Below, one piece after another: positions 51,216 to 64,000 of a stretch of 64,000 nt of DNA; the first letter of the stretch is position 1; every line of letters starts with the position of its first letter. A model generated the notes under the pieces. The model made no database searches. It had not been told where the DNA came from and saw only the letters and a list, made by a program, of their open reading frames with translations. The translations under genes were made by a program, and so were the position numbers. Origin of the DNA: Raineyella sp. W15-4 (GTDB lineage: Bacteria; Actinomycetota; Actinomycetes; Propionibacteriales; Propionibacteriaceae); assembly GCF_033170155.1 (NCBI RefSeq), contig NZ_CP137079.1, positions 3,782,001-3,846,000 on the forward strand, in the 5' to 3' direction.

Positions 51216-54011
51216 CTAGACCGCCGCCCGCCGCGGCCCACCGGCCGACCGGATCCTGATCCCGCCCTCCAGGACCTCCTGCATGGTGGTGACGGTCTCG
51301 GGGAGCAGGTCGATGCCGAGGGTGTGGGCCTGCCTGTTCAGGGTGAAGACCAGCCGTTCCACCTCGCGGGTGTTGCCCGACCGGTGCTCGGCGACCAGCA
51401 GCTGCCGCAGCAGCAGCTCGTCGCCCGGCGCGGCCACCAGACCACGCCCGACCGCCCACTTGGCGAGATCGAGGTCGCGCTCCTCAAGGGCCCGCCCGGC
51501 GAGTTCGTGGGCCACGTCGCGGAGGGCACAGGAGGACTCGATCCGCAACTCCTCCGCCCAGGCCCAGTCGCCCGGCGGGGCGTCCGCGAGCGGGGCGCCC
51601 CGGACCAGGTCGAGGATCGCGGCCAGGGTGGCGCTGCTGGTCTCGCCGATGCCCCGCCCGAGCATGACCTGCACCTCCTGCCAGTCGGAACGCACCGCCG
51701 GGTGCAGCCGGATCCGGCCCGAGTAGGCCTCCGGCAGGTAGGGCCGACCGTCGGTCGCCTGACCCAGCCAACCCCGCAGCCGGCTCATGTTGGACCGCCG
51801 GGTGCTCTCCGCCACCAGCAGCGCGCGAGTCATCTCCACCGAGCTGGCGTTCGGGTGCTCCAGCAGCCAGGCGCAGTACTCCAGGCACTGGCGCGGAGCG
51901 CGACTCGGTGGCGCCCCGCGGGCGCCCTCCAGTTCGATCGGGCCCAGCAGCAGGAGCCTCGGATCGTCTGACATCGGGGGCTCCTCCTCGACGGCGGCGT
52001 CGAGATCGACGACCGCAGTGATCGGCGTGACTTCCGGGTACCCCTCGGCCCAGCGGGCGGGGACAAGGGCTTCGGGGGCGGTGATCCGGTGCAGTTCGAT
52101 CACCGCGTCCCGGGCCCGACGGCCGACCCGCTGCGGGGCGAGGGTGAGCCCGGCCGGTTCGAATCGCGCCCGCAACGGCGCCTCGTCGACGACCAGGGTC
52201 GCTTCGCCGCCGGGGTGTTCGGAGATGAGGACGATCGGTCCTCGGTGGGCGTGGTTGAACCGGTCGCTGAGCCGGCGCCGCTGCGCGGGGGTGATGTCCG
52301 CCAGCAGGACGAGGACCTGCGGGGCCCAGGCCTCGGCGAAGTCGGGATCGAGGCGCAGCACGGGGACCGGAGCGTCGGCCACGGCGACCAGAGACTGCTG
52401 GGTGGCGGCGGTGGACTCCCAGCTGGTGATGATGTCGTCGAGTCCGTCGACGTGGCGTACGTGGTCGGCCCCGCTGACGTCGACCAGACCGCCGTCATCG
52501 CCCACGACGATGACCCGGGCGCCGCCCGACCAGGTGCTGGTGATCAGCTCGAGGACGTGGGAGGTGAGGATCTCCCCGGCGCGCTCGGCGGTGTCGGCAT
52601 GGACGCTGAGTCGGCCCCACCGTTCGAGGTCGACCAGATAGGTGTCCGCGTCGTCTGTGCCGAGGGTGACCAGGGCCGGCCACGGGCGCAGCAGCTCTTC
52701 GCCGGACGCGGCCCGGCGATCGGCCAGCACATCGGCGCGAGCCACCAGCCAGGAGGATCCGCTGTCGACGAACGGCTCCGGGGCTGGCCCCGGCGGCCCG
52801 GGGACCCCGGCTGTCCCGGGCGTCGTGCCCACCCGGTCGTCCCAGACGAACTCGAGCTCGGCCCTGCCGACCCGCAGTCGGTCGAGGCCGCCGATCACTC
52901 CGGTCCGCAGCGCGTGGCGGGCGACCATGTGGACGGCCCACTCCACCACGTCGACCTCCTCGGGGACCTGGCTGACCAGCAGGGCGCTGCGCAGCCGTTC
53001 GGCGCCTTCGGTGGGATGCTGCGGGACCTGTCCGACAGGCCGTTGGACGAGCTGCAGATGTCGGCGGCCGGCCAGACCCGCCACCACCCCGGTGGCCGTG
53101 AGGGCGCCGATGCCGCCCAGGGCCAGCCTCCGCTCCCGGTCGGGATCAAGCTGGGATGCCGGCTCGACGGGCGCCGGCTCCGCTGGTCCGGGCGACGCCG
53201 TGTCTGCCGGTGCCGGGGACGCCGCCTCCGCTGCCACGGCCGGGACCGCCGCCGGTGTGGTGACCGACGTCTCCGTCGGCGCCGGTGTCGCGGTCGTCGG
53301 TGCTTCGATCGGCGTCGATACGGTCGCCACCGGCGTCTCGATCGGCGCGGGCAACGGCATGGTGAGCACCCAACCCACCTCGAGGTGGTCGGGATCGTGG
53401 CGCATCAGGGTGGGGTTGAGGTCGCGGATCTGCCGCCACTCCAGGCCGTCGCCGAGATAGGTCTCCGCCAGAGTCCACAGGTCGTCGCCGCGCTGCACCC
53501 GGTACTCGAACGTCTCGGGCTGCGCAGCGGTCGTCCCGTCGGTCCCGACCGGCCCCGCCGGCTTGCCGGACGACGGCCCCGTGGACGACGGCTTTGTGGC
53601 CCCGACCGGGTCGGCCGGCTGCGCCGGCGCAGCGTACGCCACCGCGACGGCGGCCCCCGGCGAGGGCGGTCCCTCCCGCTGACCGACCCCGAGCATCAGC
53701 AACACCGCCAGCAGCAGGGTCCCGGAGACCAGCTGCATCCAGCGCAGCCCGGGGAGCCGTACGGCGCGGCCGCCGATGACCGTGACGACCTCCACGCCGA
53801 CGGACAGGATGAACAACAACCAGACCACCCAGCCCAGCCCGGTCAGCAGCCACAGCAGCACCCGCCCGTCGTCGGGCACCAGAAGGAGCCGGTCGAGACC
53901 GAGGTCGCCGGGCGCCGGGTACAGCCCCCAGGTGACGAGCAGCCAGGGCACGACGATCAGCGATCCCAGCAGCACGGCCAGGGCCAGCAGGCCTCGTACG
54001 GTCCGCATCAT
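51216..54011 (-). CDS. LysM and BTAD (AfsR-type activator) domain protein of the Tad locus
   Basis: 931 residues. Three hydrophobic segments lie at ~6-28, 48-75 and 88-108. A LysM domain at ~168-220 reads FEYRVQRGDDLWTLAETYLG and WRQIRDLNPTLM. A Pro/Ala/Thr-rich linker, another hydrophobic stretch (LALGGIGALTATGVVAGLAG, ~290) and an acidic central region follow. The C-terminal ~260 residues are an OmpR-like winged helix plus a BTAD tetratricopeptide-like domain: RLLLLGPIELEGARGAPPSR, ALRDVAHELAGRALEERDLD, LLRQLLVAEHRSGNTREVER. Such membrane-tethered BTAD proteins accompany Tad pilus genes in actinobacteria. They may couple cell-wall sensing to pilus expression; function is not established. 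Confidence 0.85.
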   Translation of the reverse strand: MMRTVRGLLALAVLLGSLIVVPWLLVTWGLYPAPGDLGLDRLLLVPDDGRVLLWLLTGLGWVVWLLFILSVGVEVVTVIGGRAVRLPGLRWMQLVSGTLLLAVLLMLGVGQREGPPSPGAAVAVAYAAPAQPADPVGATKPSSTGPSSGKPAGPVGTDGTTAAQPETFEYRVQRGDDLWTLAETYLGDGLEWRQIRDLNPTLMRHDPDHLEVGWVLTMPLPAPIETPVATVSTPIEAPTTATPAPTETSVTTPAAVPAVAAEAASPAPADTASPGPAEPAPVEPASQLDPDRERRLALGGIGALTATGVVAGLAGRRHLQLVQRPVGQVPQHPTEGAERLRSALLVSQVPEEVDVVEWAVHMVARHALRTGVIGGLDRLRVGRAELEFVWDDRVGTTPGTAGVPGPPGPAPEPFVDSGSSWLVARADVLADRRAASGEELLRPWPALVTLGTDDADTYLVDLERWGRLSVHADTAERAGEILTSHVLELITSTWSGGARVIVVGDDGGLVDVSGADHVRHVDGLDDIITSWESTAATQQSLVAVADAPVPVLRLDPDFAEAWAPQVLVLLADITPAQRRRLSDRFNHAHRGPIVLISEHPGGEATLVVDEAPLRARFEPAGLTLAPQRVGRRARDAVIELHRITAPEALVPARWAEGYPEVTPITAVVDLDAAVEEEPPMSDDPRLLLLGPIELEGARGAPPSRAPRQCLEYCAWLLEHPNASSVEMTRALLVAESTRRSNMSRLRGWLGQATDGRPYLPEAYSGRIRLHPAVRSDWQEVQVMLGRGIGETSSATLAAILDLVRGAPLADAPPGDWAWAEELRIESSCALRDVAHELAGRALEERDLDLAKWAVGRGLVAAPGDELLLRQLLVAEHRSGNTREVERLVFTLNRQAHTLGIDLLPETVTTMQEVLEGGIRIRSAGGPRRAAV

Positions 54012-54451
54012 CGCCCCCGATACCGGTCCACGACACTGGCGGCGCCCGCCTGCAGGGTCAGTTCGCCGGGCAGCCCCGGCAGGATCAGGTCGCCGAGGGC
54101 CACTGTGCAGCCGACCGTCACCCGGACCGTGCCAGGGGTCCCGGGCGGGCGGTGCAGGGCGGCCGCGTCGACGGCCACCGTCGTGTCCCGGCAGGGCACG
54201 TCGGTGAGGTTGGCCCGGGCCGTCTCCTCAGCGGCCCCGGCGGAGGCACGGGCGTCGGACAGCACGGTGGCGGTCCGCGCCGCCCGGTGGGCGGCCTCGT
54301 CGACCGTCGCCCGGGCGGTCCAGATCCGCGCACCGCCGACGACCAGCCCGATCAGCATCATCAGGGCCGGCACCAGGACGACCAGCTCGAGGGCGACGGC
54401 ACCGCGGTCCGACCGCGACACCGACCACGGACGACCGCTCACCGGGCTCAT
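54008..54451 (-). CDS. TadE-like pseudopilin
   Basis: 147 residues from ATG 54451. The prepilin-type N-terminus, DRGAVALELVVLVPALMMLI, has Gly followed by a Glu at +5, ideal for prepilin-peptidase cleavage, and a single hydrophobic helix. The rest is a small extracytoplasmic domain with Cys residues (VPCRDTT, VTVGCTVALG) that could form a disulfide. TadE-type proteins are minor pilins of the Tad apparatus. ATG overlaps the stop of the preceding TadE-like gene (ATGA). Confidence 0.82.
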   Translation of the reverse strand: MSPVSGRPWSVSRSDRGAVALELVVLVPALMMLIGLVVGGARIWTARATVDEAAHRAARTATVLSDARASAGAAEETARANLTDVPCRDTTVAVDAAALHRPPGTPGTVRVTVGCTVALGDLILPGLPGELTLQAGAASVVDRYRGR

Positions 54452-54828
54452 CGGGCCAGCTCCCGGGGTGCGGTGGCGGTGACCTCGAGCCGGGACAGGC
54501 CCAGATCGATGACCAGCGGGGCCGTGCCACGCACCACGACGTCGACCTGCCGGGGTCCGCGGCGGGCGCTGACGGTGACGGACTCGACACCGCCGGACGC
54601 CGCCACTCGGAGGGCCGCCGCTTCCGCCGAGGTGGTGTTCGCTCCCTCCACGCTCAGCAGGTCGGCGGCGGTCGCGGCCGCGGCGCCGAGGGTGAGGCGG
54701 GCGTGCCACCAGACCCCCAGCTGCACGGTGCCGAGCACGAGCAGCATCACCACCGGCCACAGCAGCGCCCACTGCAGACCCTCGGTGAGCCCGCGCTGGT
54801 CGGGGGCCCGCCCACCGGCGGGGATCAG
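54448..54828 (-). CDS. Second TadE-like pseudopilin, start codon uncertain
   Basis: About 126 residues if it begins at the CTG that overlaps the pilin-gene stop (54828). No ATG, GTG or TTG lies in frame between that point and the membrane helix. The open frame runs back to 55056 but would overlap the small pilin gene with a Pro/Arg/His-rich tail. DQRGLTEGLQWALLWPVVML starts the helix; WWHARLTLGAAAATAADLLS is typical TadE. CTG or an overlapping upstream start is possible. The conserved protein part makes the gene itself likely. Confidence 0.65.
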   Translation of the reverse strand: MIPAGGRAPDQRGLTEGLQWALLWPVVMLLVLGTVQLGVWWHARLTLGAAAATAADLLSVEGANTTSAEAAALRVAASGGVESVTVSARRGPRQVDVVVRGTAPLVIDLGLSRLEVTATAPRELAR

Positions 54829-55007
54829 GTCGGCAGGTGGCCCTGGACGTAGGCGGTCACCGCGGTGATCACGATCGTGGCGACCGCGACTGCGCCGGCG
54901 AGGAGGATGGCGTTCTCCGTGCTCTGCGACAACCCGCGCTCGTCGCGGGGGCGTGGCCCGGTGGTCAGCTGGAGCAGGGTGGTGATCAGGGTGGTCAGGA
55001 CCTGCAT
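54825..55007 (-). CDS. Small Flp-like prepilin
   Basis: 60 residues. MQVLTTLITTLLQLTTGPRP is a leader; DERGLSQSTENAILLAGAVA is a prepilin-like junction and the start of one hydrophobic helix. Flp pilins have Gly-xxxx-Glu-Tyr; here Glu is followed by Asn, and it sits one residue later than usual relative to the Gly. A GGAGA ribosome site precedes the ATG. It is probably the major pilin subunit of the Tad fibre. The gene between TadC and the TadE-like genes fits that role. Confidence 0.72.
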   Translation of the reverse strand: MQVLTTLITTLLQLTTGPRPRDERGLSQSTENAILLAGAVAVATIVITAVTAYVQGHLPT

Positions 55008-55052
55008 TGGGTCTCCTTCGGTCAGGTCGGTCGGTCACGTCGGGTCGGTCGG

Positions 55053-55988
55053 TCATGGGGCACCTCCGGCGCCGGTCAGGCGGAGCAACGGAGGTACGAG
55101 GAAGACGAGGGCGAAGACCATCGACGGGATGACCATGAAGACGGTCATCTGTTCGGACACCTTCGCCGCCGCGATCTTCCGCGCGCTCAGGTGCGCGTCG
55201 CGCAGCTCGCGGACCCGGGCGCGGAGCGCGCCGGTAAGGGAGGCGCCGGACTCCTCCAGCTGCATCACGTCGGCGATGTCGGCGAGCTCGGGCAGGTCCA
55301 GGTGGGTGCCGAGCGTCCGCAGCTGGGCGTACGGGGGGCGCTGCTCCAGCCGGGCCCGCTCCAGGGCGGCCCGGATCTGCAGGAACAGCGGTGCGTCAGA
55401 GACCGCCGCGGCAGCGGCGAGTGCCTGCGTCGCCGACCGGTTGGCCAGCCGCTCCAGGGTGACCAGGTCGAAGAAGGTGAACAGTGCCTCCGCCAGGTCC
55501 TCACGGATCGCCGGAGCCCGCTGCTGCAGCGTCAGGTCGGGCACGAACCAGCCCAGCACGGCGCCCGCCAACGCGACCCCGACCGGCACCATCAGGGTCC
55601 AGTCGGCGAAGAAGCCGATACACCCGGCGAGGACGCCAGGGGTCACCGCTCCGATCAGCGCGTACGCCGCTTTCTCGGACATGAACTCGGGCACCGGGAC
55701 GCCGCGGGCATCGAGAGCACGGCGTTGCGCGGCCGGAAGTGGGGTGAACGGGTGGGCCGCCAGCCACCGGCCGAGCCGGTCCAGGAGCGATCCCCTGGCG
55801 GCGCCGGCGGCGGACGCCGGGCCGACCGGATCCTGTTCCGCCGCCGCGGCAGGGGCGGTGTCGAGCAGTGCCAGCCCGTCCTTCAGTGCCGGGATCGGCG
55901 GGCGGAGGCCTCGGACCAGAGCGACGCAGCCCACGCCGATGGCGGCCCCCAGCAGGGCGACCAGCAAGGTCCAGGCGGGGGCGGTCAC
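55053..55988 (-). CDS. tadC: TadC-type inner-membrane platform protein (GspF family)
   Basis: 311 residues from a GTG overlapping the tadB stop. Membrane helices: one at the N-terminus (WTLLVALLGAAIGVGCVALV), a pair near 105-145, and one at the C-terminus (MTVFMVIPSMVFALVFLVPP). The T2SSF domain is recognised by FDLVTLERLANRSATQALAA and LADIADVMQLEESGASLTGA with LRARVRELRDAHLSARK. TadB and TadC form the platform that the TadA ATPase drives for pilus assembly. Confidence 0.9.
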   Translation of the reverse strand: MTAPAWTLLVALLGAAIGVGCVALVRGLRPPIPALKDGLALLDTAPAAAAEQDPVGPASAAGAARGSLLDRLGRWLAAHPFTPLPAAQRRALDARGVPVPEFMSEKAAYALIGAVTPGVLAGCIGFFADWTLMVPVGVALAGAVLGWFVPDLTLQQRAPAIREDLAEALFTFFDLVTLERLANRSATQALAAAAAVSDAPLFLQIRAALERARLEQRPPYAQLRTLGTHLDLPELADIADVMQLEESGASLTGALRARVRELRDAHLSARKIAAAKVSEQMTVFMVIPSMVFALVFLVPPLLRLTGAGGAP

Positions 55989-56878
55989 GAGAGGGCTCCG
56001 GTCAGGATCCGCTGGCGCGGCCGGGGCCGGGTCAGTCGTCGCATCATCGCCAGCGAACCGAGGTAGGCGGCGACCAGTCCGAGCAACAGGAGCTGGCCCA
56101 GACCGGTGGCGTACGGGGCGAAGAAGTCGCGGCCGAAGACCAGGGCGATCCCCAGCATGCCGAGGGTGATCGCGGTGACCTGGCGGACCACGATCCGTGG
56201 CTTGGCGCGTTCCGCCTCGATCTCGCGCAGGGCCGCCAGGATCTGCTGGAGCGAGCCGGACAGCGCCTCGAGGGTCGCCGTCGCGCCGGTGCCGCCACGG
56301 TGGGCGGCCAGGCCGAGGGCTGCGAGGACGGCGTCCGCCTCCGGGACGGCCAGACCGTCGGCCATCTCCCGCAGCGCGTCCCGGACGGTCCAGCGCTGGT
56401 CGAGGCGCCTGACGACCCGATCGAGGTGCGGCGACAGCAGTGCGGGGGCGGTCCGCCGGGAGGTCCGGATGGCGTCACCGATCGACTGGCCGGTCGGCAG
56501 GGTGGCGACGAGACTGTGTATCCACCGGTCCAGAGCGCCGAGCCGTTCGATCGTCGGCGCCGGGGGGTCGGCGAGGAGGTAGGGCAGGGCGATCACCGCC
56601 AGCGGAACGATCGCCAACCACACCACCCAGCCGGTGAGGGCGTACGCCACGACGCCGCCGAGGCACCCGGCGAGCAGGCGGGCGTCCCGGCGCCGCCCGG
56701 CCGCGCCCGGGGGACGCCGGGTCAGGGTCGCCCACCGCTCGGGCAGGCTCCGCGCCGGGGCGACCGTACGCGTGGCGGACCGAACGGGCGGGGGCACCTC
56801 CCGCGGAAGGAACCCCGCGACGACCAGCAGGGTGCCCACGGCCAGTAGCCCGCCGCACAGCGCGACCAGGGCGGTCAT
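55985..56878 (-). CDS. tadB: TadB-type inner-membrane platform protein
   Basis: 297 residues. Hydrophobic helices at ~5-22, ~72-105, ~225-245 and ~255-275. The T2SSF-like domain reads HSLVATLPTGQSIGDAIRTS, RWTVRDALREMADGLAVPEA and AHRGGTGATATLEALSGSLQ. Paired with TadC. ATG overlaps the tadA stop (ATGA), part of a fully chained operon. Confidence 0.9.
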   Translation of the reverse strand: MTALVALCGGLLAVGTLLVVAGFLPREVPPPVRSATRTVAPARSLPERWATLTRRPPGAAGRRRDARLLAGCLGGVVAYALTGWVVWLAIVPLAVIALPYLLADPPAPTIERLGALDRWIHSLVATLPTGQSIGDAIRTSRRTAPALLSPHLDRVVRRLDQRWTVRDALREMADGLAVPEADAVLAALGLAAHRGGTGATATLEALSGSLQQILAALREIEAERAKPRIVVRQVTAITLGMLGIALVFGRDFFAPYATGLGQLLLLGLVAAYLGSLAMMRRLTRPRPRQRILTGALS

Positions 56879-58362
56879 CGGACACCCGGCCAGGCGGAGC
56901 GGTAGCGCTCGAGTTCGGCGCTGAGGGTCGGCTCGGGGTCGAAGACCGGAGGTGTCAGGGCGCTCGGCAGGGCGTTGTAGAGCAGGTGGGTCACCGGCCG
57001 TCCGCTCTCCAGGGCACCGGTCACCTGGCGTACCTCGCTGACCAGGCGCTGCCGGGTCCCGCCGCGCCAGGTGTCGTCGATCAGCCGGACGTGGACGAAC
57101 AGGTCGATGTTGTGCGCGATCTGCCGGTAGGCCTCGTCGACGGTGAGAACTCCGCCCTGCGCCACCCGAGCGGCGAGCCGGTCCATCGTCGAGGCCGCGG
57201 AGTGGGAGTGGGTCGTCGACATCGTTCCGGCTCCGGACTGCATCGCCTCGAACATCGCCCCCGCCTCGGCGCCACGCACCTCACCGACGATGATCCGGGA
57301 CAGGTTCTGCCGGAGCGCCTCGGGCACCAGGTCGGCAACGGTCACCTCGCCGACCCGGCGGCCGCCGACCACCTCCCCCTGACCGATCCGGGCCTGCAGG
57401 GCAATCATGTTGCGCCGGTGCGGCAGCAGGTGGGTGAGCAGTTCGTAGTCGGTCTCCAGGGTGCCGAAGCGCTCGTTGGCCGGGATCGCCGCGATCAGGG
57501 CCCGCAGCAGGGTGGTCTTGCCCGCGCCCTGGTCACCGGAGATGACGATCGAGCGCCGACCCATCACCGCGGCGTGCAGGTGGCGGGCCAGTTCCTCCGG
57601 CAGCATGCCGCCGGCCACCAGGTCGGGCAGCGTGACGTCGGTGAGCAGGTGTTGGCGGATGGTGATCGAGGGCCGGAAGGAGAGCCCGAAGCCGATCGCG
57701 TGGAGCCGGAAGCGGTCGCCGAGCGCCAGGGTCATGCTCGGGTGGGCGTCGTCGAACGGGCGGCTGGGGCGGGCCTGCTCGCCGAGGAACCGGATCGCCT
57801 CGACGAGCTCCTCATCGGAGTCGGCGACGGGCGGGTGCTCCGCCCGGTGGCCGTCGCCGTACTGGATGACGACGGAGTCGCAGCCGTGCAGTTCGACGTT
57901 CTCCGCCGTCGGGATCTCGAACAACGGTTGCAGCCGGCCGTAACCGAAGACGGCGCTGGACACCGCCCGGACGTACGCCTCCTCGTCGTCGAGATCCCAC
58001 AGCGCGGTGCCCGAGGCCTGGAGCTGCTCGGCGTGGGCGCGGACCACCTGCCGGATCGCGGCGCGTCCCATCAGCTGCCGGTCGGCATCGGGCATCGTCC
58101 GACCGTACTGGTCGTAGTGGTGTTGCACCCGGTCGCTGATCTCGGCGGCGGCCTGCCGACGCAGCGTCACCACCACACCCCAGTCGACCGCAGTGGGACC
58201 ACCCGGCCGTGTGCCGGAGCCACGATCGGGGACGGATCCGGGGGCGCGCGTGCCGGCCCGACGAGGGGCGGCGTACGGTCCGTCGGGCGCTCGGTCGACC
58301 ACGTCGATGATGGCGCGCCGGCCCATCAGGGGGACCTGGTCCAGCGGGAGGTGGTCGGTCAT
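56875..58362 (-). CDS. tadA: TadA/CpaF-type secretion ATPase
   Basis: 495 residues from ATG 58362, chosen for its GAGGAGGTGCC ribosome site. Walker A ISGDQGAGKTTLLRALIAAI, the Asp box GTLETDYELLTHLLP, Walker B RIIVGEVRGAEAGAMFEAMQ, and the His box GTMSTTHSHSAASTMDRLAA. The N-terminal helical region and RFRLHAIGFGLSFRPSITIR are typical of CpaF. It powers pilus assembly and possibly retraction at the inner membrane. Confidence 0.95.
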   Translation of the reverse strand: MTDHLPLDQVPLMGRRAIIDVVDRAPDGPYAAPRRAGTRAPGSVPDRGSGTRPGGPTAVDWGVVVTLRRQAAAEISDRVQHHYDQYGRTMPDADRQLMGRAAIRQVVRAHAEQLQASGTALWDLDDEEAYVRAVSSAVFGYGRLQPLFEIPTAENVELHGCDSVVIQYGDGHRAEHPPVADSDEELVEAIRFLGEQARPSRPFDDAHPSMTLALGDRFRLHAIGFGLSFRPSITIRQHLLTDVTLPDLVAGGMLPEELARHLHAAVMGRRSIVISGDQGAGKTTLLRALIAAIPANERFGTLETDYELLTHLLPHRRNMIALQARIGQGEVVGGRRVGEVTVADLVPEALRQNLSRIIVGEVRGAEAGAMFEAMQSGAGTMSTTHSHSAASTMDRLAARVAQGGVLTVDEAYRQIAHNIDLFVHVRLIDDTWRGGTRQRLVSEVRQVTGALESGRPVTHLLYNALPSALTPPVFDPEPTLSAELERYRSAWPGVR

Positions 58363-59093
58363 GCCGGCACCTCCTCGAATGACCGGAACGCGTCCAGCAG
58401 CGGTGATCGCTCCCACCGCCGCGGTGGCACCGCCCCGTCGGACAGGACGGCGGCGTGCTCGGGCAGGTGGGGCAGCACCAGGTCGACGGACCAGCCGAAC
58501 TGCGCCGCCACCTCGTGGCGGTCGTAGGGCATCCCCTCGCCGACCAGAGCGAGCCCGACGCGGGTGGCCCGCAGGGAGTTCTGCAGCAGGTCGTCGATCG
58601 CATCGCAGACGGGCCGCGCCGCGGCCAGATGGCGCAGGCTGGTCCGGGTCACCACCAGCACCTGGTCGGCGACGCGGAGCAGCGGTTCGACCGGTCGGAC
58701 GGAGGTGAGTCGCCCGCCGTCGACGACGACGTCGGTACCGTCGTCGGCGGTCCGCCGCAACAGGTCCGCGAGGGCCGGCCAGCCGGGTTCGAACAGATCG
58801 ATGGCTGCCAGGTGTCCGAAGCCGGGAAGGAACCGCCGCGTCCCCTGCTCATCCAACGGCAGTCCGGCGGTCCCGAGGTCGAAGGGCGCACCCATCCGCC
58901 GGCGGCGGGCGAACTCCTCCAGGCCGGTCCCGGCAGCGACGGTACCCCGCAAGTAGCCAGCCAGCGGAGCCTGCGCGGCGTCCCGGGCGGCGTCGACGAG
59001 CAGCGTCGGAGCCGGGAGGTGCAGTGCCAGGCCGATGGCGGTCGTGGTGACCCCAGGGGATCCGGCCGAGCCGAGCAGGAGGCGTACGGCCAT
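58359..59093 (-). CDS. TadZ/CpaE-like protein with a degenerate P-loop
   Basis: 244 residues of MinD/ParA-like fold. The deviant Walker A reads GSAGSPGVTTTAIGLALHLP, without the lysines of KGGxGKT; LLVDAARDA is the Walker A' Asp. DVVVDGGRLTSVRPVEPLLR and VLVVTRTSLRHLAA are the later strands. TadZ proteins localise the Tad machine to cell poles and often bind nucleotide weakly. It precedes tadA, overlapping by ATGA. Confidence 0.8.
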   Translation of the reverse strand: MAVRLLLGSAGSPGVTTTAIGLALHLPAPTLLVDAARDAAQAPLAGYLRGTVAAGTGLEEFARRRRMGAPFDLGTAGLPLDEQGTRRFLPGFGHLAAIDLFEPGWPALADLLRRTADDGTDVVVDGGRLTSVRPVEPLLRVADQVLVVTRTSLRHLAAARPVCDAIDDLLQNSLRATRVGLALVGEGMPYDRHEVAAQFGWSVDLVLPHLPEHAAVLSDGAVPPRRWERSPLLDAFRSFEEVPA

Positions 59094-59094
59094 C

Positions 59095-59817
59095 TCAGCT
59101 CCCCCTGACCAGAACGATCCGGTCGGCCGCGGCCAGCCGCGCGACCTCCTCGGCGTCGCGGCGGGCGACCGCGACGTCGACCAGCACGGCCACCTGGTCG
59201 TAGCTGGTCTCGACGGGGCGGTGGATCTCCGCCCGGAACGCCCGGTTCCCGCCGGCGGTGCCGGTCGGCTCGGGGCCTGCCTCCACCAGCAGCACCGACG
59301 AGCCCGGATCGAGCGGGATCCGCGGCACCCGGCCCTCCGCCAGCCGGAGCCCGACGACCGCCGTGCCGGTCGGCAGGTCCTCCCGACCGACGGAGGCGCC
59401 GGTCAGCAGGCTGCCTTCGGCGATGTCGGTGCGAGCGGGCTGGCCGACGACGGTGCCGACGGCGTCCGCGGGCAGCGCGTCGAGCCCGTTGAGTCGTCCG
59501 ACGGTGACCGGGCTGAGGTCCTGGGCCCGGATGATCTCGCCGCGGTAGACCGTCCGGTTGAGTCGCAGGACGGAGGAGGTGTCGGCCACCTGGGTCCACA
59601 ACACCACGGATCCCAGTGCGCCGATCACCATGGCGAGCAGCCCGGCGAGGATCCAGCGTGGCCGGCGCCGGCGCACCGCCGACAGCGGCCGCCCGACGGG
59701 GACGCCACGCGGCCGCGCAGCCACGCCCGTCGACTGCACGGTCCGGGTGGACCCGGCGGACGGGTCGGGCGCGGGCGGGGTGGACGGGGTGGGGGTCCTG
59801 AGGGGCAACATCGTCAC
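59095..59817 (-). CDS. SAF-domain pilus assembly protein (CpaB/RcpC-like)
   Basis: 240 residues. After a Pro/Arg-rich cytoplasmic N-terminus, one helix (WILAGLLAMVIGALGSVVLW) leads to an SAF domain: LNRTVYRGEIIRAQDLSPVT and DALPADAVGTVVGQPARTDI. RIPLDPGSSVLLVEAGPE is the CpaB-like end. CpaB/RcpC helps place the secretin or outer parts of Tad systems; in Gram-positives it likely binds the wall. It is the first gene of the operon. An alternative start is ATG 59811. Confidence 0.85.
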   Translation of the reverse strand: MTMLPLRTPTPSTPPAPDPSAGSTRTVQSTGVAARPRGVPVGRPLSAVRRRRPRWILAGLLAMVIGALGSVVLWTQVADTSSVLRLNRTVYRGEIIRAQDLSPVTVGRLNGLDALPADAVGTVVGQPARTDIAEGSLLTGASVGREDLPTGTAVVGLRLAEGRVPRIPLDPGSSVLLVEAGPEPTGTAGGNRAFRAEIHRPVETSYDQVAVLVDVAVARRDAEEVARLAAADRIVLVRGS

Positions 59818-60130: not shown

Positions 60131-60166
60131 CCAGGGACCGTCAGGTGTCGTACCGGCGGTCCCTGG
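60131..60166. terminator. Hairpin terminator after the racemase operon
   Basis: CCAGGGACCG (60131-60140) and CGGTCCCTGG (60157-60166) are perfect ten-base arms around a 16-base loop, 35 bases beyond the stop at 60202. Read on the minus strand it is followed by GGATTCTTTACT, slightly T-rich. Confidence 0.7.
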
Positions 60167-60201
60167 TGTATGTTGCGGCTCTAGTCAGCCGAGCACCTGG
60201 C

Positions 60202-60984
60202 TCAATGGCTCGGAATGGTCACCACCGGCGGTTCGAAGCCCGGTACCCCCGGCAGTGCTCGGAACAGGTCATCGCGTGGCCGCGCCGGTGCGGGATACGC
60301 ACGCTTGCTCTGGCTGGCCCCCAACAGGACCATGTCTGCCGCCAACCGCACCGACCACGGACCCGGGTCGATCACCGGCACCGGCAGCCTCTCCGCCAGG
60401 GCGGCGGCAGCCTGGTGCATGGTGGTGCTGGCCAGCACGATCACGTCAGCACCATCCTCGCTGATCGCCGACTCGGCAAGGTCCCCCAGCGCCGCGATCA
60501 CCTCCGGTTTGTCGGTGAGCAGGCGGCCGACGTCCGGCGCGCCGACGTCCAGGGCCCGGTAGGACGCCACCTTGTGACCGAGTTCGTGCCCTACCAAGGA
60601 CCGACGACAGTTGTCCGCCCATCGGTCGAACGTACTGATGACGGAGAACTTCCGCCCCAACAGGCAGGCGACGGAGGCCGCCGCGTGACCCGGCCCGACC
60701 ACGGGGATGTCGAGCCTGGAGCGCAACGCCGCCACCCCCGAATCCGACGCGGTGTCGATGCACACGGCGTCGTAGCCCTCCTGCTCCGATCGCAGCCCTG
60801 CCTGCACGATGTACATGTCGATCAGCAGGTTGTCGTACGGGCTGTCAGCCAGCTCACCACTGGCCCGTACCGGCTGATAGTCGACCTCGACGCCTGCCCC
60901 CAGCAGTGTCGGGCGCAGCTGCGAGGCCCGCAACCGGACCTCGTCCTCTCCCAAGGGGAAAGGCACGATCACCTTGATCCTCAT
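60202..60984 (-). CDS. Asp/Glu/hydantoin-racemase-family protein lacking both catalytic cysteines
   Basis: 260 residues of the Asp/Glu-racemase fold: RIKVIVPFPLGEDEVRLRAS, VVGPGHAAASVACLLG, FSVISTFDRW and VPVIDPGPWSVRLAADMVLL. In canonical members the first cysteine sits in ACFGDPG and the second in GCxG/A. Here those stretches read CIDTASDSG (Thr at the Cys position, a Cys three residues earlier) and LASTTMH (Ser). The neighbouring paralogue keeps both. The protein may thus bind the substrate without racemising it, or use other chemistry. It is the last gene of the operon. Confidence 0.82.
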   Translation of the reverse strand: MRIKVIVPFPLGEDEVRLRASQLRPTLLGAGVEVDYQPVRASGELADSPYDNLLIDMYIVQAGLRSEQEGYDAVCIDTASDSGVAALRSRLDIPVVGPGHAAASVACLLGRKFSVISTFDRWADNCRRSLVGHELGHKVASYRALDVGAPDVGRLLTDKPEVIAALGDLAESAISEDGADVIVLASTTMHQAAAALAERLPVPVIDPGPWSVRLAADMVLLGASQSKRAYPAPARPRDDLFRALPGVPGFEPPVVTIPSH

Positions 60985-60997
60985 GAGTCCTCCCGCC

Positions 60998-61666
60998 TCA
61001 GACCTCGGATCCTGCCCGTGTCACGACCTCGGCCCGGGCCGCCAACACCGCTATCGGCACCGCGTCCAGCACCGGCACCCCCAGCTCCGCCGACAGCACG
61101 TCCGCAACCGGCCCGAGGGCCGAGCAGCCGAGACAGATGCTGTCCGCCCCGGTGGCGACGAGTCGCCGGGCTGCGGAGACGATCCCGTCCCAGTGGCCTG
61201 GCAGGTCCCGGTCCAACTCGGCCACCCCCACGCCGATCGCCTGCACGCCTGCGCAGGTGTCACCCATGGCGTAGCGCTCGACCATGTCGGTCATGATCCC
61301 CACCGCGTCGTGCGAGGCCGCGAGGATCCCGAACGAGCCGTGGGCGCGGGTCGCGTGGACCATCGCCGCACGCGCCATCCCGATCACCGGGAGCCCGGTG
61401 CGGTCCGCGACCTCGGACACCCCGGGATCACCGAAGCAGGCGATCACCACGGCGTCAGCCGGACCGACAAGATCCGGCAACCGAAGCATGGCGGTCACCG
61501 CACGGTCCTCGTCCTCCCGGGTGTCGATCGCGGCGGGAGCGTCGGGGGTCCGTACGACAGCGAGCTCGGTCCCCGGGAGCCGCGCCACAGCGGCTGACCG
61601 AAGGATGCTGGACGTCATCTCGACGCTGGAGTTGGGGTTGATCACAAGAATCCGGATCATCGGCAT
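60998..61666 (-). CDS. Hydantoin/aspartate racemase family enzyme, catalytic cysteines intact
   Basis: 222 residues. IRILVINPNSSVEMTSSILR opens the fold. VVIACFGDPGVSEVADRTGL holds the first catalytic Cys, and SICLGCSALGPVADVLSAEL the second. VIGMARAAMVHATRAHGSFG is the usual linker motif. It probably racemises 5-substituted hydantoins or a related cyclic ureide. It follows the dioxygenase gene by 16 bases and precedes the cysteine-less paralogue by 13, clearly one transcript. Confidence 0.9.
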   Translation of the reverse strand: MPMIRILVINPNSSVEMTSSILRSAAVARLPGTELAVVRTPDAPAAIDTREDEDRAVTAMLRLPDLVGPADAVVIACFGDPGVSEVADRTGLPVIGMARAAMVHATRAHGSFGILAASHDAVGIMTDMVERYAMGDTCAGVQAIGVGVAELDRDLPGHWDGIVSAARRLVATGADSICLGCSALGPVADVLSAELGVPVLDAVPIAVLAARAEVVTRAGSEV

Positions 61667-61682
61667 TCCTGTCCGATCAGGC

Positions 61683-62672
61683 TCAGGCCGCCGCGAGGGA
61701 TCGGCGGGTCTTTAGCAGGTAGTTGTCCCCCGAGGTGATCGGGGGATACTTCGCACCGGACTCGCCGATGCAGGTCGGGATCGCCTCGATCAGGGCGTCC
61801 GGGTCGGGTTGGTGGAAGAACGGGATCGACAGCCGGCGCTCGCCCAGCGACGGAGCCGGCGGGTTCGCAACCCGGTGCAGCGTGGAGACCCACCGGTCGT
61901 CGGTCCACCGGGCCATCAGGTCACCGATGTTGACCACGAAAGTGCCCGGAATGTCGGGCACCAGGCGCCACTGTCCCTCCTGGCGCACCTGCAGCCCGCT
62001 CGGCCGCTCGTTGCGATAGAGGATGGTCAGGCTGCCGTAGTCGGTGTGCTCGCCGAGTCGCACCGAGCCGGGCACAGCGAGGTCGCTGACCGGCGGGAAG
62101 CCGTTCGCGAAAAGCACCGAACAGTGCTTGGCACAGGAGGCGTCGAACCAGTCCTCGGCCAGGCCCAGGCCCAGTGCGAACCCCTTCAGCAGAGTGGTGG
62201 CGACCCGCTCCATCTGCCGGTAGTACGCGGTCCACACCGCCCGGAACCGATCCTGGCCCGCCGGCCACAGATTGACGTGATCGAAGACCCCCTCGCCGAT
62301 GGCCTCGGGGGAGCCGATCGCAAAGTACTCGACGTAGTCCCCAGTCCGTTTGCCGGCCAACGACCGGGCGTGCGGCTCCATCCAGCCGCGGCTGGTCTCC
62401 GGTGCGGGCTGGTGGACGGGTTGCTTGAGGTGCTCCGGAAGAGCGAAGAACTCCTCGCACACGTCATGCATGTCGTCGATCAGTCGCTGCGGGACACCGT
62501 GGTCGGAGACGACGAGGAAGCCGACGTGGCGATTGGCCTCATCGATCCGGGCACCGAGGGCGCGGCGGACCTCCTGGTCGGGAGAGTCGAGGCCGTCGAG
62601 GGCGATCACCGGGATGTCGGCCTGGTCGAGGACTTCGGTGGTGTCGGTCGCAGTGGGCAGGGGGTCACGCAT
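61683..62672 (-). CDS. Isopenicillin-N-synthase-like Fe(II)/2-oxoglutarate-type dioxygenase
   Basis: 329 residues from ATG 62672; the extended frame to 62900 overlaps the SnoaL-like gene and is not conserved. DIPVIALDGLDSP and RHVGFLVVSDHGVPQRLIDD form the DIOX_N start. The catalytic core has iron ligands His and Asp in LGEHTDYGSLTILYRN and the distal His in TLHRVANPP, with Arg of RLSIPFFHQPD for 2-oxoglutarate binding. This is the non-haem iron oxygenase fold that includes thymine-7-hydroxylase. Its place beside a hydantoinase makes oxidation of a ureide or pyrimidine ring plausible. Confidence 0.92.
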   Translation of the reverse strand: MRDPLPTATDTTEVLDQADIPVIALDGLDSPDQEVRRALGARIDEANRHVGFLVVSDHGVPQRLIDDMHDVCEEFFALPEHLKQPVHQPAPETSRGWMEPHARSLAGKRTGDYVEYFAIGSPEAIGEGVFDHVNLWPAGQDRFRAVWTAYYRQMERVATTLLKGFALGLGLAEDWFDASCAKHCSVLFANGFPPVSDLAVPGSVRLGEHTDYGSLTILYRNERPSGLQVRQEGQWRLVPDIPGTFVVNIGDLMARWTDDRWVSTLHRVANPPAPSLGERRLSIPFFHQPDPDALIEAIPTCIGESGAKYPPITSGDNYLLKTRRSLAAA

Positions 62673-63192
62673 GGCTCGGCTCCTTGGGTGCGGTGACCGG
62701 GGTGAACATCTCGACACCCCAGCCCTTGTCGTACGGGGTGGCGAAGAGGGTGTCGACGGCCAGGTGGGAGATGAACCACTGGTCCCCGTCACGGACGAAG
62801 GTGTTGTCGTACGCCAGGCCGATCCACACCGGCAGGGTTCCCTCCCGGATGGTCGACGGCTCGAAGCAGAGCCATCGTCCGGTCGCGGACAGGGCGTCAT
62901 CGGCGACCCGGATCTCCTGGTTGGTCAGGTAGTGGTAGGTGAAGGGCTGGCGCTCCTGGACGCCTCGGAAGTTCGCGGCGATCGCCTCGCGGCCCTGCCA
63001 GGTGCCGAATTCGATGTTGCGGCCGACGCCCTCCCAGACCGCGTCGGGGGTGAAGTGCTCGACGATCCGGTCGATGTCCTTGGCCAGGTCGCAGGCGTTG
63101 ATGTAGGACGACATCAGGTCGGCGACCGCTTGATGCGCCTCGACCCGGTCCAGCCGGGCCAGCAGGGCGGCGAGGGTGGGCTCGGGGGTCAT
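62665..63192 (-). CDS. SnoaL/NTF2-fold protein
   Basis: 175 residues from ATG 63192. VEAHQAVADLMSSYINACDL and DIDRIVEHFTPDAVWEG are the first helices and strand. FEFGTWQGREAI-like text (NIEFGTWQGREAIAANFRGV), YHYLTNQEIRVADD and WFISHLAVDTLFATPYD complete the cone-shaped fold. Such proteins act as isomerases, dehydratases or ring-hydroxylating subunits. The start overlaps the hydantoinase stop (ATGA), and its end overlaps the dioxygenase start by eight bases, showing tight coupling. Function unassigned. Confidence 0.88.
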   Translation of the reverse strand: MTPEPTLAALLARLDRVEAHQAVADLMSSYINACDLAKDIDRIVEHFTPDAVWEGVGRNIEFGTWQGREAIAANFRGVQERQPFTYHYLTNQEIRVADDALSATGRWLCFEPSTIREGTLPVWIGLAYDNTFVRDGDQWFISHLAVDTLFATPYDKGWGVEMFTPVTAPKEPSHA

Positions 63193-64000
63193 CCGACTGC
63201 CTTTCGGAGGAGGAAGCGGCCCCGTCCCGGGCGGTCGCCGGCGGCGGTCGGGCGACCGTCCTCGACGACCAGTTCCCCGCGGGACCAGACCTGGGTGAGA
63301 CGGCCGTGAGCGGTGACCCCCTCCCACAGCGTGTAGTCGATGTTCTGCGCCTGGCCGGCGGCCGAGATATGCGTGCTGCCGTCGGGGTCGAGGACGGCGA
63401 TGTCGGCGTCCGCGCCGGGCGCGATGATGCCCTTGCGGGGGAACATGCCGAACCGGCGGGCGGGCTCGGCGGCGGTGACCGACACGTACTTACCGAGGTC
63501 GATCCGGCCGCTGTGCACCCCCTCCGAGTAGGTGACGATCATCCGGTGCTCGATCCCCGGGCCGCCGTTGGGGATGTCGCGGAAGTCGTCCCGTCCGTCG
63601 GTCTTCTGGGTGGCGAAGCAGTACGGGCAGTGGTCGGAGCTGACGATGCCGAGCACGCCCGACGACAGGCCGCGCCACAGGGCGTGGCGGTGGGACTCCT
63701 CGCGCAGCGGCGGGGTGAGGACGACCTTGGCCCCTTCGAAGTCGGGCCGATAGTAGGCCTCCGGGCCGAGCGAGAGGTAGTGGGTGCAGGTCTCACCACC
63801 GATCGGCCAGCCGGAGATCCGCGCCTCGCCGATCAGGTCGACCGACTCCTGGGTGGACATGTGCACGAAGTAGAGCGGCGCCTCGGCCATCCGGGAGATC
63901 CGGATCGCCCGGGCGACGGCCTCGGCCTCGGTCGACGGGGGCCGGGACAGCAGGTGTCCCTCGGGCCCGCGAACGCCTCGGCTGACCAGATCTGCGGCCA
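63189..64000 (-). CDS. Hydantoinase/dihydropyrimidinase-like cyclic amidohydrolase, N-terminus cut by window edge
   Basis: About 270 residues are present; full-length enzymes have ~460. My translation from the edge reads LVSRGVRGPEGHLLSRP, a hydantoinase motif, then LYFVHMSTQESVDLIGEAR, GETCTHYLSL with a metal-ligand His, and SSDHCPYCFATQKTDGRDDF with the catalytic Asp. ADIAVLDPDGSTHISA is the C-terminal beta-sandwich. These enzymes open hydantoin or dihydropyrimidine rings using two metals. It is upstream of four coupled genes and so is the likely entry enzyme of the pathway. Metal motif HxH lies beyond the edge. Confidence 0.9.
   Translation of the reverse strand, partial: AADLVSRGVRGPEGHLLSRPPSTEAEAVARAIRISRMAEAPLYFVHMSTQESVDLIGEARISGWPIGGETCTHYLSLGPEAYYRPDFEGAKVVLTPPLREESHRHALWRGLSSGVLGIVSSDHCPYCFATQKTDGRDDFRDIPNGGPGIEHRMIVTYSEGVHSGRIDLGKYVSVTAAEPARRFGMFPRKGIIAPGADADIAVLDPDGSTHISAAGQAQNIDYTLWEGVTAHGRLTQVWSRGELVVEDGRPTAAGDRPGRGRFLLRKAVG

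Follow-up and report, generated by a model that had tools for sequence, protein, structure and literature searches.

A candidate hydantoin-to-diaminopropionate locus with its own importer and added oxygenase and SnoaL genes in Raineyella sp. W15-4

We examined a 64,000-nucleotide stretch of the genome of Raineyella sp. W15-4 (G000:C1:3782001-3846000, on a 3.96-Mb contig; hereafter, the window), at the right-hand end of which an original prediction, made from the letters alone, had placed an operon for a hydantoinase, a SnoaL-like protein, a dioxygenase and two racemases. Reading onward in the same genome, we found that these genes are the 3′ tail of a larger locus. The whole locus is probably coordinately regulated, and probably imports a urea-containing ring compound that is degraded via 2,3-diaminopropionate to pyruvate and ammonia. 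The more specific reading, a hydantoin-to-diaminopropionate locus with import by an energy-coupling-factor (ECF) transporter, GntR/UTRA control and an added oxygenase and SnoaL protein, has in our judgement about an even chance of being correct.

Two facing operons and their predicted pathway

Families were assigned with Pfam and NCBIfam profiles at curated cut-offs, and solved relatives by sequence similarity to structure entries; positions in our extract of the locus (L002) convert to window positions by adding 59000. On the minus strand of the window the order is hydantoinase, SnoaL-like protein, 2-oxoglutarate/Fe(II) oxygenase, racemase 1 and racemase-like gene 2, with junctions of -4, -8, +16 and +13 bases, as close-packed as had been predicted. 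The D-hydantoinase/dihydropyrimidinase (464 amino acids; TIGR02033, 557 bits, cut-off 393) occupies 63189..64000, its 5′ part running past the edge to 64583 (G000:C1:3845189-3846583). It is followed by the SnoaL/NTF2-fold protein (62665..63192; 175 amino acids; PF13577 SnoaL_4, E 1.4e-22), the thymine-dioxygenase/isopenicillin-N-synthase-like oxygenase (61683..62672; 329 amino acids; PF14226 and PF03171), racemase 1 of the hydantoin/allantoin type (60998..61666; 222 amino acids; PF01177, E 6.6e-47) and gene 2 (60202..60984; 260 amino acids; PF01177, E 5.1e-26). The profiles agree with the families originally named. The longer open reading frames of the oxygenase (405 amino acids) and the SnoaL protein (220) are mechanical over-extensions, and the likely starts give the lengths above. 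Just 3′ of gene 2, a GC-rich inverted repeat on the minus strand (60150..60200), recognized by eye in the flanks of both W15-4 and its congener G003, is the probable end of the operon; a terminator scan, which requires a T-run, does not list it.

The operon goes on upstream of the hydantoinase on the minus strand, its genes never more than 84 bases apart: first come the two ATPases of an ECF transporter (G000:C1:3846580-3847458 and 3847455-3848357), next its T component (3848365-3849312) and a small S component (3849371-3850012), and last an Amidohydro_3 protein of the D-aminoacylase family (3850097-3851686; PF07969). The resulting 10-gene operon (amidohydrolase, ECF S, T, A1 and A2, D-hydantoinase, SnoaL protein, oxygenase, racemase and racemase-like gene) faces a divergent one, in which a diaminopropionate ammonia-lyase (DAPAL; 3852744-3853880; NF006058, 310 bits, cut-off 276) overlaps an M20 amidase of the hydantoinase/carbamoylase family (3853877-3855163; TIGR01879, 380 bits, cut-off 204). 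A GntR/UTRA regulator (3851851-3852615) is encoded between the two operons. The reported lack of a carbamoylase was thus an effect of the window edge, the M20 gene lying about 8-9 kb past it, and the extension right of 64000 that had been proposed in search of a transporter, a carbamoylase and a regulator finds all three.

The presence of DAPAL makes 2,3-diaminopropionate the likely hub of the locus. The enzyme is of the YgeX type at equivalog level (NF006058) and 37.6% identical to E. coli YgeX, although its 238 bits do not reach the 532 that the narrower TIGR03528 requires. The Lys and two Asp residues of the E. coli enzyme that we take to be catalytic are conserved in the alignment. Together with the D-aminoacylase relative and the ECF importer, DAPAL likely points towards a diaminopropionate hub and away from an allantoin-like end. 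The hydantoinase, of the HyuA type by TIGR02033, is 39.7% identical to E. coli HyuA, and its best solved relative is dihydropyrimidinase 3sfw (E 1.5e-119). Racemase 1 matches an HpxA-type allantoin/hydantoin racemase (3qvj, E 9.3e-22; a further HpxA-type entry is 5lfd), sharing its fold family and both cysteines (in ACFGD and GCSAL). The closest solved relatives of the amidohydrolase are N-acyl-D-glutamate deacylase 3gip/3giq and D-aminoacylase; 3gip/3giq is the entry to which UacY of the urate pathway has been compared (PMC12507026). PF07969 and this entry place the amidohydrolase in the UacY-type family, as a candidate counterpart of UacY.

Three other assignments were rejected. For allantoin degradation, allantoinase AllB scored 259 against 358 bits and allantoate deiminase AllC 213 against 598; for ergothioneine utilization, ErtD and ErtE (hydantoin-5-propionate amidohydrolase and N-carbamoylglutamate hydrolase) scored 206 against 650 and 339 against 520 bits; and for dihydroorotase the family score lay under the curated cut-off.

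We propose that the ECF transporter would import a 5-(substituted-aminomethyl)hydantoin or an isomeric 5-substituted dihydrouracil, that the racemase would equilibrate C5 and the hydantoinase open the ring, and that the amidohydrolase and the M20 enzyme would strip carbamoyl or acyl groups from N2 and N3. DAPAL would then cleave 2,3-diaminopropionate to pyruvate and two ammonia. In W15-4, the oxygenase and a SnoaL-type lyase would most likely oxidize a related cyclic ureide, such as an alkylated one, for entry into the same route. The best single candidate for the substrate appears to be 5-ureidomethyl-hydantoin, an intermediate of reductive urate degradation, with other 5-aminomethyl-hydantoin derivatives also fitting. 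The S component has no relative on plasmids and none in the other genomes of the class sampled at 1e-15, so that genomic context gives no substrate; its sole Pfam match, MASE1, is probably spurious.

The two arms of the locus share an operator-like site, TTGTNNTACAAGT, which occurs as TTGTCCTACAAGT upstream of the amidohydrolase gene and as TTGTCATACAAGT upstream of the DAPAL gene. These two sites compare with a chance expectation of 0.01 per 20 kb, and none lies within the 64-kb window. The congener G003 carries TTGTNNNACAA at both matching positions. The DAPAL-side site is located between -35-like and -10-like hexamers (chance alone predicts one such pair per region), a placement as for a repressor site. 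These observations suggest that the GntR/UTRA protein encoded between the operons binds the sites and probably represses both.

Conservation of the core in the family

We defined the core as ten functions (ECF S, T, A1 and A2, D-aminoacylase homologue, hydantoinase, GntR regulator, DAPAL, carbamoylase and hydantoin-type racemase) and found it in 6 of 198 genomes of the family, from two genera. In G003 the locus stands at the same site, flanked by pcnB and the Tad-pilus gene cpaB, and its hydantoinase and racemase 1 are 82% and 62% identical to those of W15-4. Two further congeners, G001 and G002, have an empty site, with pcnB and cpaB only a few kilobases apart (L085:15658-17547 and L086:3095-6588); the site is thus variable within the genus. 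The four loci of the second genus encode hydantoinases of a separate clade (37-41% identical) and racemases only 28-39% identical, which sit after the carbamoylase gene and keep both cysteines. Since both functions are retained despite replacement of the genes, this argues that hydantoin opening and racemisation belong to the pathway.

Hydantoinase, hydantoin racemase and N-carbamoyl-L-amino-acid hydrolase of the HyuC type, found here in one locus, are also the classic trio of hyu clusters, and the hydantoinase scores as a D-hydantoinase/dihydropyrimidinase. The locus could accordingly be read as a general hydantoin/dihydropyrimidine locus, which would convert assorted 5-substituted hydantoins into amino acids, with DAPAL acting as a broad ammonia-lyase and the oxygenase broadening the range. 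We consider this somewhat unlikely, given that DAPAL, assigned at equivalog level and with its conserved catalytic residues, is present next to the carbamoylase in all six loci, where the D-aminoacylase relative and the dedicated ECF importer are constant as well. These three components, in contrast to the oxygenase and SnoaL genes, which occur in one locus, set the core apart from hyu clusters.

The oxygenase, the SnoaL gene and gene 2 are absent from the locus in all five relatives, and are so far a single-species addition to the core. No oxygenase homologue was detected in these five genomes at E 1e-25, and the best homologue across the other family genomes is 36-38% identical. Gain of the accessory genes is favoured over their loss in G003, because none of the four second-genus loci has them. 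However, the G003 racemase reading frame continues into the terminator-like repeat, and a deletion there could also explain the missing genes; base composition does not decide the matter (GC at third positions of 0.85-0.93 versus a median of 0.92). The original prediction had named a standard hydantoinase-carbamoylase cluster just outside the window, with the oxygenase absent in relatives, as the finding that would count against it. This is largely what we observed: the five relatives lack the oxygenase, but the core is not a standard cluster of that kind, because it includes DAPAL, the D-aminoacylase relative and the ECF importer.

Relation to reductive urate degradation

Reductive urate degradation was worked out as recently as 2025 (PMC12507026, PMC12990295). 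In its lower half, HyuA opens ureidomethyl-hydantoin and UacY (a D-aminoacylase homologue) or YgeW takes off the 2-ureido group, giving albizziin; YgeY (an M20 enzyme) and YgeX (DAPAL) then lead to pyruvate (PMC12507026). The locus combines the same four enzyme types as the lower half in C. difficile (HyuA-UacY-YgeY-YgeX) and E. coli (hyuA/ygeW/ygeY/ygeX). It differs in having an M20 enzyme of the HyuC type, a racemase, an ECF importer and a GntR/UTRA regulator and, in W15-4 only, the oxygenase and SnoaL genes.

We looked for the upper half of the pathway in W15-4, G003 and G019. SsnA was not found in these genomes (best score 26.6 bits in W15-4, cut-off 455.5), whereas one control genome scored above the cut-off. 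YgfK gave partial matches only, none of them over the cut-off; the alternative UacX-type (PydA-like) reductase was not searched for, PF01180 being too general. The xanthine-dehydrogenase molybdenum domain (PF02738), used for XdhD-type enzymes, had no match in the three genomes, with positive controls. These absences speak against the full reductive pathway and suggest a ring compound taken up from outside as the starting point of the locus, its substrate likely being an imported intermediate. The core thus resembles the lower half of the pathway, yet is not a member of it as defined, because searches recovered no SsnA, YgfK or XdhD-type gene and its M20 enzyme belongs to a different subfamily.

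A bolder extension, which we regard as unlikely, is that the locus serves free-standing salvage. Bacteria without the upper half would import the ureidomethyl-hydantoin of their neighbours through the dedicated ECF transporter, and W15-4 would have added an oxidative branch (oxygenase, SnoaL lyase and cysteine-less racemase relative) that brings an oxidized or alkylated relative into the diaminopropionate hub. A conserved combination of a dedicated importer and lower-half enzyme types, in genomes in which SsnA, YgfK and XdhD-type genes were not found, would make the hydantoin intermediate of the urate pathway a traded nutrient. The racemase of the locus also bears on the stereochemistry question left open by PMC12507026 and PMC12990295.

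Several points weigh against a pathway from hydantoin to diaminopropionate. D-hydantoinases and D-aminoacylases are promiscuous families, the substrates and the specificity of the S component are themselves predictions, and the M20 enzyme, a protein of the HyuC/beta-ureidopropionase type (TIGR01879), has no BLAST match to E. coli YgeY at 1e-5. A genome of the same class, G126, encodes an amidohydrolase, an M20 enzyme, a sodium symporter, a GntR regulator, DAPAL and a carbamoylase (L088:4321-11925), a set that shares regulator and enzymes but not the transporter, on a contig on which no hydantoinase was recognized; the hub may therefore concern acyclic compounds. The locus would then act on N-acyl- or N-carbamoyl-2,3-diaminopropionates, such as albizziin or the N-oxalyl-diaminopropionate of plant seeds, the hydantoinase being added for cyclised forms. 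Deinococcus plasmids on which DAPAL is accompanied by an ArgE/DapE deacylase alone are consistent with this, but all six ECF-importer loci hold a hydantoinase and a hydantoin-type racemase, and we rate it as quite unlikely.

In favour of the route from hydantoin, several loci of other actinobacteria have DAPALs 47-55% identical to that of W15-4 next to XdhD-, SsnA-, HyuA- and YgeW-like genes, and on a Rhodovastum plasmid the DAPAL, YgeY and D-aminoacylase genes are contiguous. In G953, of the same phylum, XdhD-like, SsnA-like, DAPAL and hydantoinase genes stand next to a luciferase-family gene (L095:4589-12200); a luciferase-family replacement has been reported for Chloroflexota (PMC12507026).

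The accessory genes

The likeness of the oxygenase to isopenicillin N synthase and thymine hydroxylase, proposed originally, is borne out: its closest solved relatives are the ethylene/succinate-forming enzyme 9ovh (E 5.1e-37) and thymine dioxygenase (thymine-7-hydroxylase) 5c3p (E 3.5e-36), to which it is similar over nearly its full length. The alignment shows the HTD...H iron ligands (HxD...H) and the RxS 2-oxoglutarate motif conserved. In contrast to 5c3p, it lies in a bacterial operon and has Phe in place of the Arg of the LRLLHYP motif, presumably a substrate contact in thymine dioxygenase.

We compared the neighbourhoods of oxygenase relatives 33-41% identical to it. In Acetobacter (L018, L019) and an actinobacterium (L040), these adjoin NCS1 cytosine/purine/allantoin permeases and hydantoin racemases. 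BMP-type transporters stand beside relatives in Tistrella (L054, together with an AMP nucleosidase) and Shinella (L075), an adenosine-deaminase-family gene in L036, and HpxO and Rieske genes in P. putida (L055). A relative in Rhizobium (L074), among others, shows no nucleobase or ureide context. By association, at moderate identity, these neighbourhoods support a nucleobase- or ureide-like substrate for the oxygenase. The clusters in L018:6503-13388, L019:6567-13417 and L040:9875-14748, each combining a gene of the hydantoin racemase family and an NCS1 permease with one or two thymine-dioxygenase-like oxygenases, and no recognized hydantoinase, may themselves represent an uncharacterised nucleobase or ureide route.

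The original prediction had suggested a possible oxidative route for a pyrimidine-, purine- or allantoin-like compound, in which the oxygenase and the SnoaL protein would be central steps. The substrate class remains reasonable in the light of the permeases, racemases, BMP-type transporters and AMP nucleosidase and adenosine-deaminase-family genes described above. As the centre of the pathway, however, oxidation is improbable, five of the six loci having neither the oxygenase nor the SnoaL gene. In the diaminopropionate reading, the pair would probably form an accessory oxidative entry. Literature searches gave no description of an operon combining a hydantoin racemase and a dioxygenase, or of hydantoin with either an ECF transporter or a 2-oxoglutarate-dependent oxygenase, in keeping with the earlier statement that the oxygenase and the NTF2-fold protein lie outside described hydantoin pathways; if the assignment is right, the pair would be an oxidative step newly tied to hydantoin catabolism.

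Aligned with LinA (3s5c) and homologues, the SnoaL protein retains the LinA-type dyad, with an invariant Asp (in NACD) and His (in YHYLTN), which makes a lyase or dehydratase acting after hydroxylation plausible. Around its relatives in other actinobacteria (41-42% identical) there are no genes for core enzymes, and they give no clue to a function. A single-sequence fold prediction (mean pLDDT 38) was not used.

Of the two racemases originally named, racemase 1 stands, whereas in gene 2 Thr and Ser replace both catalytic cysteines, much like the Ser/Ser variant 3qvk. The same substitutions are found throughout its subfamily, including plasmid proteins of Neorhizobium, Tistrella, Variovorax, Novosphingobium and Rhizobium rhizoryzae that are 42-48% identical to it. 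The Neorhizobium and Tistrella relatives are each paired with a further PF01177 protein, in operons that look unrelated. A member of the cysteine-less subfamily (DTxSD, STTM) directly precedes a second PF01177 gene in L049:9995-11421, L050:9995-11457 and L053:9992-11499.

On its other side in the window, the operon adjoins minus-strand Tad-type pilus/secretion genes (51216-59817; an ATPase and TadB/C-like, TadE-like and CpaB/CpaE-like proteins), which appear ordinary.

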